From Leptolyngbya sp. FACHB-261 (GTDB lineage: Bacteria > Cyanobacteriota > Cyanobacteriia > FACHB-261): DNA of 64,000 nt. This document shows, piece by piece, positions 1-2,173 of the stretch. Under the pieces are notes generated by a model. It ran no database searches. It saw only the letters and a program-made list of their open reading frames with translations, and had not been told where the DNA came from. A program made the translations under genes and the position numbers. Within the stretch, counting starts at the first letter, position 1. Each line of letters begins with the position of its first letter. Where the stretch lies: contig NZ_JACJPL010000031.1 of NCBI RefSeq assembly GCF_014696065.1, positions 1 through 64,000 on the forward strand. The letters run 5' to 3'.

Positions 1-106
1 GTGGTTTGTGCTGAAGAATTGGATGCGACAGCGATTGGATGAGTTTGAGAACTTTCGAGATTGTGTGGATGCTGCGTTCAAGCAATGTCCTAACGTATGC
101 GCGTAG
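1..106 (+). CDS. Transposase C-terminal fragment (IS630/Tc1-like), 5' end outside window
   Basis: An open frame runs from base 2 to a TAG stop at 104-106 and codes for 34 residues, beginning WFVLKNWMRQRLDEF and ending CPNVCA. The W..LKNW...RLxxFxxFRDCVDAAF pattern resembles the extreme C-terminus of IS630/Tc1-type DDE transposases after the catalytic Glu, but the catalytic core is outside the window, so the family is a recollection and not proven. The stop lies 7 bases before the first CRISPR repeat, and the two bases touching that repeat are TA (112-113), which is the target dinucleotide of IS630-type elements. Whether the element is complete cannot be judged here. Confidence 0.55.
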   Translation, partial: WFVLKNWMRQRLDEFENFRDCVDAAFKQCPNVCA

Positions 107-113
107 AGCTATA

Positions 114-2173
114 GTCGCAAAAACAGCAAATCCCTTTGAGGGATTGAAACCTGAAACGGCTGGAACCGGAGCTTAGAGGGAAGGAGTCGCAAAAACAGCA
201 AATCCCTTTGAGGGATTGAAACATTGTGAGGGCTAAGAACGGGGCAGGGAACTGGGAAGTCGCAAAAACAGCAAATCCCTTTGAGGGATTGAAACGGGCC
301 AATTGCCCTTTCGCCCATGTTCTTCTTCATGAGTCGCAAAAACAGCAAATCCCTTTGAGGGATTGAAACTCGCCCTTCATCCTGGATTACTTCTTCCTCA
401 ACTTGTCGCAAAAACAGCAAATCCCTTTGAGGGATTGAAACAAGGAGGGAGAGAAGTGATGGCACAATGCAACTGGATGTCGCAAAAACAGCAAATCCCT
501 TTGAGGGATTGAAACCCGCTGGATGAGTCTTCCAGCCCTGAGTGATCCAGGTCGCAAAAACAGCAAATCCCTTTGAGGGATTGAAACTCAGCCGCTTTGT
601 TAGCCGCTTTTGAGCGCTTAGGTCGCAAAAACAGCAAATCCCTTTGAGGGATTGAAACTTTGACATGGGCTTTATCACTAATGAACGGGGCAGAGTCGCA
701 AAAACAGCAAATCCCTTTGAGGGATTGAAACACGCTGTCCTCGCTGGCTCCAGAGCTGCTGTTATCGTCGCAAAAACAGCAAATCCCTTTGAGGGATTGA
801 AACAGGTAGATTTATCGTTGAGATTAAAGGCGACTGCATGTCGCAAAAACAGCAAATCCCTTTGAGGGATTGAAACAAAAACCCCGCGTAAACGTCGAGG
901 GCTCAGGCTGGTCGCAAAAACAGCAAATCCCTTTGAGGGATTGAAACGAATTACCATCCGCTCAGGATAATCAGGCTTAGCCGTCGCAAAAACAGCAAAT
1001 CCCTTTGAGGGATTGAAACGGTTGAAGCGGCGGCATTGCACCAGAATGCTGTAGGTCGCAAAAACAGCAAATCCCTTTGAGGGATTGAAACGTATTAGCT
1101 CGAAAGCACGCCCGGACCCATCAGGTCGCAAAAACAGCAAATCCCTTTGAGGGATTGAAACAGCTTCCGCTCGACCCCTTGGGCCGCTATAACGGGTCGC
1201 AAAAACAGCAAATCCCTTTGAGGGATTGAAACCGTTTGCCCTGCCAGGGAACTTTGAGGTTGAAGCCTGTCGCAAAAACAGCAAATCCCTTTGAGGGATT
1301 GAAACAACGGGCAATTCAATGGGGAGACCATTGGCATCAAGTCGCAAAAACAGCAAATCCCTTTGAGGGATTGAAACAGCTTGGGGATAGGGGTGCTGGC
1401 TAAGAAACTGCCGTCGCAAAAACAGCAAATCCCTTTGAGGGATTGAAACCACTGCAGCCAACCCTGTATTTATTGAATACCCTTGTCGCAAAAACAGCAA
1501 ATCCCTTTGAGGGATTGAAACCGGAATCAACCCGGAACGGAAGATCTCAACCTCAATGTCGCAAAAACAGCAAATCCCTTTGAGGGATTGAAACTTTAAC
1601 TGATGAAATTACGGTTGGCAAAAGGAAAGGGTCGCAAAAACAGCAAATCCCTTTGAGGGATTGAAACTCCTCTGTGATTGTTCCGAGGGGAACCTGTATG
1701 GAGTCGCAAAAACAGCAAATCCCTTTGAGGGATTGAAACGTGAAATCAAAGAAGTGAACTGGAAACTCTCATGATGTCGCAAAAACAGCAAATCCCTTTG
1801 AGGGATTGAAACATCGAACCAGTCCCGATTGGCGCAGGTGGATTTGGGTCGCAAAAACAGCAAATCCCTTTGAGGGATTGAAACCACTCATGAGGGAGGC
1901 TGAAGCCACACACATAGAGTGTCGCAAAAACAGCAAATCCCTTTGAGGGATTGAAACCTACGCCTCTACTTCGGCGCATTCCGAACGAGCTGGAGTCGCA
2001 AAAACAGCAAATCCCTTTGAGGGATTGAAACGCGGCTACGGACAGCCCGGTAGCTGCGCTAACAGGCCGCGAAAACAGCAAATCCCTTTAAGGGATTGAA
2101 ACCATTGAGACTGCCCTTCTTGCTGCTGGATAGATGGTCGCGAAAACGGTGAATCCCTTTGAGGGATTGCAAC
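114..2173 (+). CRISPR. CRISPR array, 29 repeats of 37 nt, 28 spacers of 33-37 nt
   Basis: Repeats of 37 bases start with GTCGCAAAAACAGC and end with GGGATTGAAAC. They contain a perfect 6-bp stem AATCCC/GGGATT around the loop TTTGA. Repeat starts are 114, 186, 259, 333, 405, 479, 551, 622, 695, 767, 840, 911, 983, 1055, 1125, 1196, 1269, 1341, 1413, 1485, 1558, 1631, 1703, 1776, 1848, 1921, 1995, 2066 and 2137. The first 27 read as identical. The repeat at 2066 has three changes and the one at 2137 several more, so the right end is the old, leader-distal end and the array reads left to right. The GAAAC 3' end agrees with a crRNA handle on the plus strand. No two spacers look alike. No cas genes lie in the window, so the subtype cannot be assigned. 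Apparent ORFs inside the array are artefacts of the repeats. Confidence 0.98.

Follow-up and report, generated by a model that had tools for sequence, protein, structure and literature searches.

Does an array of CRISPR repeats that begins directly behind the end of a transposase gene, with no leader in front of it, represent a locus that has lost its leader and with it the capacity to acquire spacers? The question is posed by the first bases of the window analysed here, a stretch of 64,000 nucleotides from the cyanobacterium Leptolyngbya sp. FACHB-261. In frame 2 of bases 1–106, the translation ends in WFVLKNWMRQRLDEFENFRDCVDAAFKQCPNVCA with a TAG stop codon at 104–106, and the first 37-nt repeat begins at 114, directly after the TA at 112–113 (Table 1). 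The initial annotation gave this spacing of seven bases exactly, and proposed that a mobile element had inserted at the border between leader and repeat, displacing the leader and stopping spacer acquisition. Base 1 of the window is also base 1 of contig C31, in a genome of 6.9 Mb assembled into 36 contigs.

Table 1 Features at the start of the window
Feature	Position	Strand	Remarks
IS630-family insertion sequence (IS), right end	1..111	+	Same 113 bases found at 9 contig ends
Transposase (orfB), last 34 codons and stop	2..106	+	From translation; array co-directional; full-length relative is IS630 (NF033545, 2.7e-41)
Terminal inverted repeat, right, GTCCTAACGTATGCGCGTAGAGCTA	87-111		Part of the IS right end
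TA target duplication, the last two bases of split spacer 29	112..113		Other 33 nt on contig C26
Type I-D array, leader-distal half (repeats 30-58 of 58, 28 spacers)	114..2173	+	

The fragment of 34 amino acids alone matched no Pfam or NCBIfam model, and its family was therefore assigned through relatives. The 113-base end has relatives in other cyanobacteria that are up to 93% identical, and 88% identical over the full length, whose right ends terminate complete elements with two open reading frames (orfA and orfB, in overlapping frames) and a length of about 0.95 kb where both ends were found. In a relative with 85% identity to the 113 bases, orfB is recognised as an IS630 family transposase (NF033545, 2.7e-41; DDE_3, 1.1e-38) and has a C-terminus nearly the same as the 34-amino-acid piece in the window, which bears out the earlier recognition of an IS630-like transposase end. 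Frame A of a full-length relative matches HTH_Tnp_IS630 (1.8e-10) and frame B contains the DDE_3 domain. The element thus has the attributes of the IS630 family: a DDE transposase, as seen through the full-length relative, short terminal inverted repeats (TAGCCCTACGCACGCACGTTAGGAC versus TAGCTCTACGCGCATACGTTAGGAC) and a duplicated TA target.

The same element marks many breaks in the assembly. The first 113 bases of the window recur at eight other contig ends, each time with unrelated DNA beyond them, and eight contig ends carry the left end of the element, which has the matching inverted repeat and reads TA-TAGCCCTACGCACGCACGTTAGGAC. A TA adjoins the inverted repeat at all 17 of the 17 contig ends examined. 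This recurrence of the 113-base end at contig ends indicates that the contig breaks are an assembly effect of a multi-copy IS; the genome's own copy is assembled only as the C-terminal 34 and the N-terminal 17 amino acids of the transposase, and no middle part of the element was found among the contigs. Contig C34 (L013:162-606) contains a decayed copy of this IS630 element that carries stop codons and has its right end cut off.

Target duplication can be examined at another copy, which lies within the N-terminal part of an ABC transporter gene on contigs C1 and C2 (L038 and L012), with an intact paralogue nearby. When the C1 and C2 flanks are joined with a single TA, they encode the ABC transporter N-terminus ATTAATTATTACCGGCCCTATTGG, matching GTCAATTATTACCGGCCCTATTGG in the uninterrupted paralogue, and a reading that starts with MPGIRDVINYYRPYWGRAV aligns across the junction to the same-genome paralogue, starting with MAGLRDVVNYYRPYWRRVV. 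The paralogue DNA at the junction, AATTATTACCGGCCCTATTGG, has one TA only. At the sequence level, this comparison confirms the 2-bp TA duplication upon insertion, as had been expected of an element that enters at TA.

The initial annotation called for the sequence to the left of base 1, and the other end of the IS, the TA and the leader are all found on contig C26, albeit with the leader 29 repeats away. Of the contig ends with an IS that were examined, those of C31 and C26 alone have this 37-nt repeat, and C26:146-2199 contains 29 perfect copies of it in the same orientation as the C31 array. The order towards the end of C26 is leader, 29 repeats, 33 nt of spacer, TA and the left end of the IS (C26:1; minus strand). 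The 33 nt together with the TA make up a 35-nt spacer, where other spacers measure 33–37 nt, and removal of the IS and one TA yields a joined array of 58 repeats and 57 spacers split 29/29. The partner flank on C26 and the split spacer thus show that the IS entered spacer 29, exactly halfway along the array. We estimate a probability of about 0.93 for this reading, in which an IS630 insertion in spacer 29 has left an array split over C26 and C31 with its leader intact on C26. A multi-copy IS630-family element would have transposed into the TA at the 3' end of spacer 29 in a 58-repeat type I-D array, leaving 29 leader-proximal repeats beside cas1-cas2 on C26 and 29 leader-distal repeats on C31; the assembler would then have stopped at the repeated IS, and the resulting contig break would make the leader look missing.

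Could the assembler have created the junction by a false join? The break does lie at a repeat, where such errors are common. However, the contig simply stops at the junction, and a random misjoin would not produce two IS ends that have matching inverted repeats and TA flanks and that carry complementary pieces of one spacer, as is the case here; a false join is barely credible. A more substantial alternative, although still unlikely, is that the IS split the array and that later recombination between IS copies moved the halves apart. The genome has at least nine copies that are identical in their terminal 113 bases, which would be enough for homologous recombination, and such a history is compatible with the assembly. 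No positive sign of it was seen, however, and the flanks on C1 and C2 still match as the two halves of one gene, though this is no proof of adjacency. For the CRISPR locus, the split spacer suggests that the halves on C26 and C31 are still adjacent today.

The genes on C26 define the system as type I-D. Upstream of the array, they follow the order leader, cas2, cas1, cas4, cas6, Cas3'-like helicase, csc1, csc2 and Cas10d-like, of which the helicase was assigned by inspection. Csc1, Csc2 and Cas1d score above the cut-off of the I-D-specific NCBIfam models TIGR03159, TIGR03157 and TIGR04093, and the Cas10d-like gene gives a weak match to TIGR03174 (6e-5) that lies below the cut-off. The array accordingly has csc1, csc2, a Cas10d-like gene and an I-D cas1 upstream of it.

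We compared the C26 leader with 42 named cyanobacterial I-D loci picked for a clear first repeat, in which the array lies downstream of cas1-cas2, typically about 500–650 nt past cas1, and in the same repeat orientation. The motif ACCTTGAAAA precedes the first repeat exactly in 36 of these loci and with at most one mismatch in all 42, at a distance of 31 nt in 35 loci and of 29–33 nt throughout. On C26, ACCTCGAAAA stands exactly 31 nt from repeat 1, and a promoter-like ACGACA-17-TATACT is located farther upstream. The motif is absent from window bases 1–113 on both strands with up to two changes allowed.

An IS placed exactly at the leader–repeat border, with a displaced leader and dead acquisition, would explain why the IS touches a repeat at TA and why the window has no leader. 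We nevertheless consider it very improbable, given that the sole matching left flank consists of 29 more repeats of the same array with the leader and cas1-cas2 upstream, that the 33 nt and the TA form one normal spacer, and that the conserved leader motif is present on C26 and absent from bases 1–113. The IS does directly abut a repeat, as proposed, although the border is not that of the leader, and the TA is the end of split spacer 29. As the 37-nt repeat lacks a TA, spacers are the only part of the array open to this element; the joined spacers offer 80 TA sites, 2 of them at a 3' border, which makes contact between the IS and a repeat a mild coincidence. The leader is neither missing nor displaced, for both it and the first repeat are intact beside cas1-cas2 on C26. 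The claim that acquisition has stopped likewise finds no support there; with an intact leader next to cas1-cas2, spacer acquisition should be intact, and Cas1-Cas2 are probably still adding spacers at this end.

At the other end of the array, the last two repeats are decayed, with 3 and 5 changes, while the remaining 27 of the 29 distal repeats are perfect. The polarity of the array had therefore been read correctly, its right end being the old one. The perfect repeats, together with the identity of the terminal 113 bases among IS copies, are consistent with a recent insertion. A scan of GTDB-based contigs for an uninterrupted array found no match to the exact repeat in other genomes, and the only similar gap in cyanobacterial I-D arrays is a run of N in Scytonema (L115), the remaining gaps that were flagged belonging to distant loci. 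Spacers of the distal half gave no convincing match to phages, the sole weak one being to Nostoc phage YongM (E 0.01; 80% identity, spanning a repeat–spacer border), those of the proximal half gave no match to phages, and no spacer credibly matched the window or the IS ends.

The insertion may have different consequences for the two halves. With the leader found on C26 ahead of repeats 1–29, the view that the IS stands between the promoter and the window's repeats holds. The leader promoter would serve repeats 1–29, and repeats 30–58, which sit behind the IS, are probably cut off from direct leader transcription. The distal half would then be expressed only by read-through over the IS or from a co-oriented transposase transcript, which Cas6 would cut in the repeat that starts 7 nt past the stop codon. 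The transposase gene is oriented toward repeats 30–58; terminator-like sites were found neither in window bases 1–113 nor within the full-length relative of the element, and no promoter-like sites were found on the plus strand of that relative. A co-oriented transposase and the lack of a terminator-like site make read-through expression of the distal half possible, if unproved. It is a more doubtful proposition that the IS630 element supplies a replacement promoter. The transposase transcript would in that case enter repeat 30, and Cas6 would process it into crRNAs, so that the orphaned half stays active while the mRNA is trimmed after its stop codon.

Insertion of an IS or MITE into CRISPR arrays is documented in Mycobacterium tuberculosis and Haloquadratum (PMC7708916, PMC3119063), and the event described here is of this already known, ordinary kind, this time involving an IS630 element. 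The multi-copy IS6110 splits the direct-repeat (CRISPR) locus of M. tuberculosis, entering repeats or spacers (PMC7708916), and resembles the present case in being a multi-copy IS within an array that it divides. IS6110, however, is usually found in the direct repeat, makes a 3-bp duplication and drives deletions by recombination (PMC7708916), whereas here an IS630 element lies in a spacer of a type I-D array with a TA duplication. In Haloquadratum walsbyi HBSQ001, the MITE HqIRS37 is located inside a spacer of a residual CRISPR locus, likewise with intact repeats on both sides, but that element is a MITE and its locus a remnant that lacks cas genes (PMC3119063), in contrast to the transposase-bearing IS, long array and cas operon of Leptolyngbya. 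IS insertions into cas genes have also been described (PMC10359306); these too affect a CRISPR-Cas locus, yet they inactivate cas genes, whereas the insertion in Leptolyngbya leaves cas genes and leader untouched and may silence only half of the memory. The picture of this locus is thereby corrected from a leaderless array to one that is twice as long and divided over two contigs. The locus provides a clean natural setting in which to ask whether expression persists for spacers that lie behind an IS. It also warns that, in draft genomes, a 'leaderless' array at a contig edge may be the product of an IS break.

The leader survey also yielded observations beyond this array. Cyanobacterial I-D leaders share ACCTTGAAAACyAAATA at a nearly fixed distance from the repeat (C26 L009:2200-2290; L086-L156). 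The motif is strongly conserved and is likely to be a recognition site for Cas1-Cas2 or for a bound factor; a short search of titles and abstracts returned no clear description of an I-D leader motif. Other arrays in the genome have related leader ends in front of them. C26 itself contains two further arrays with the same leader motif, near 16.3–20.2 kb (L010:2336-6200) and 535.7–538.1 kb (L020:1763-4200), whose repeat is related but different (GTCGCAAAGAACCTAAATCCCTTTGAGGGATTGAAAC and a close variant), and a remnant of a leader with decayed repeats lies near 23.9 kb.
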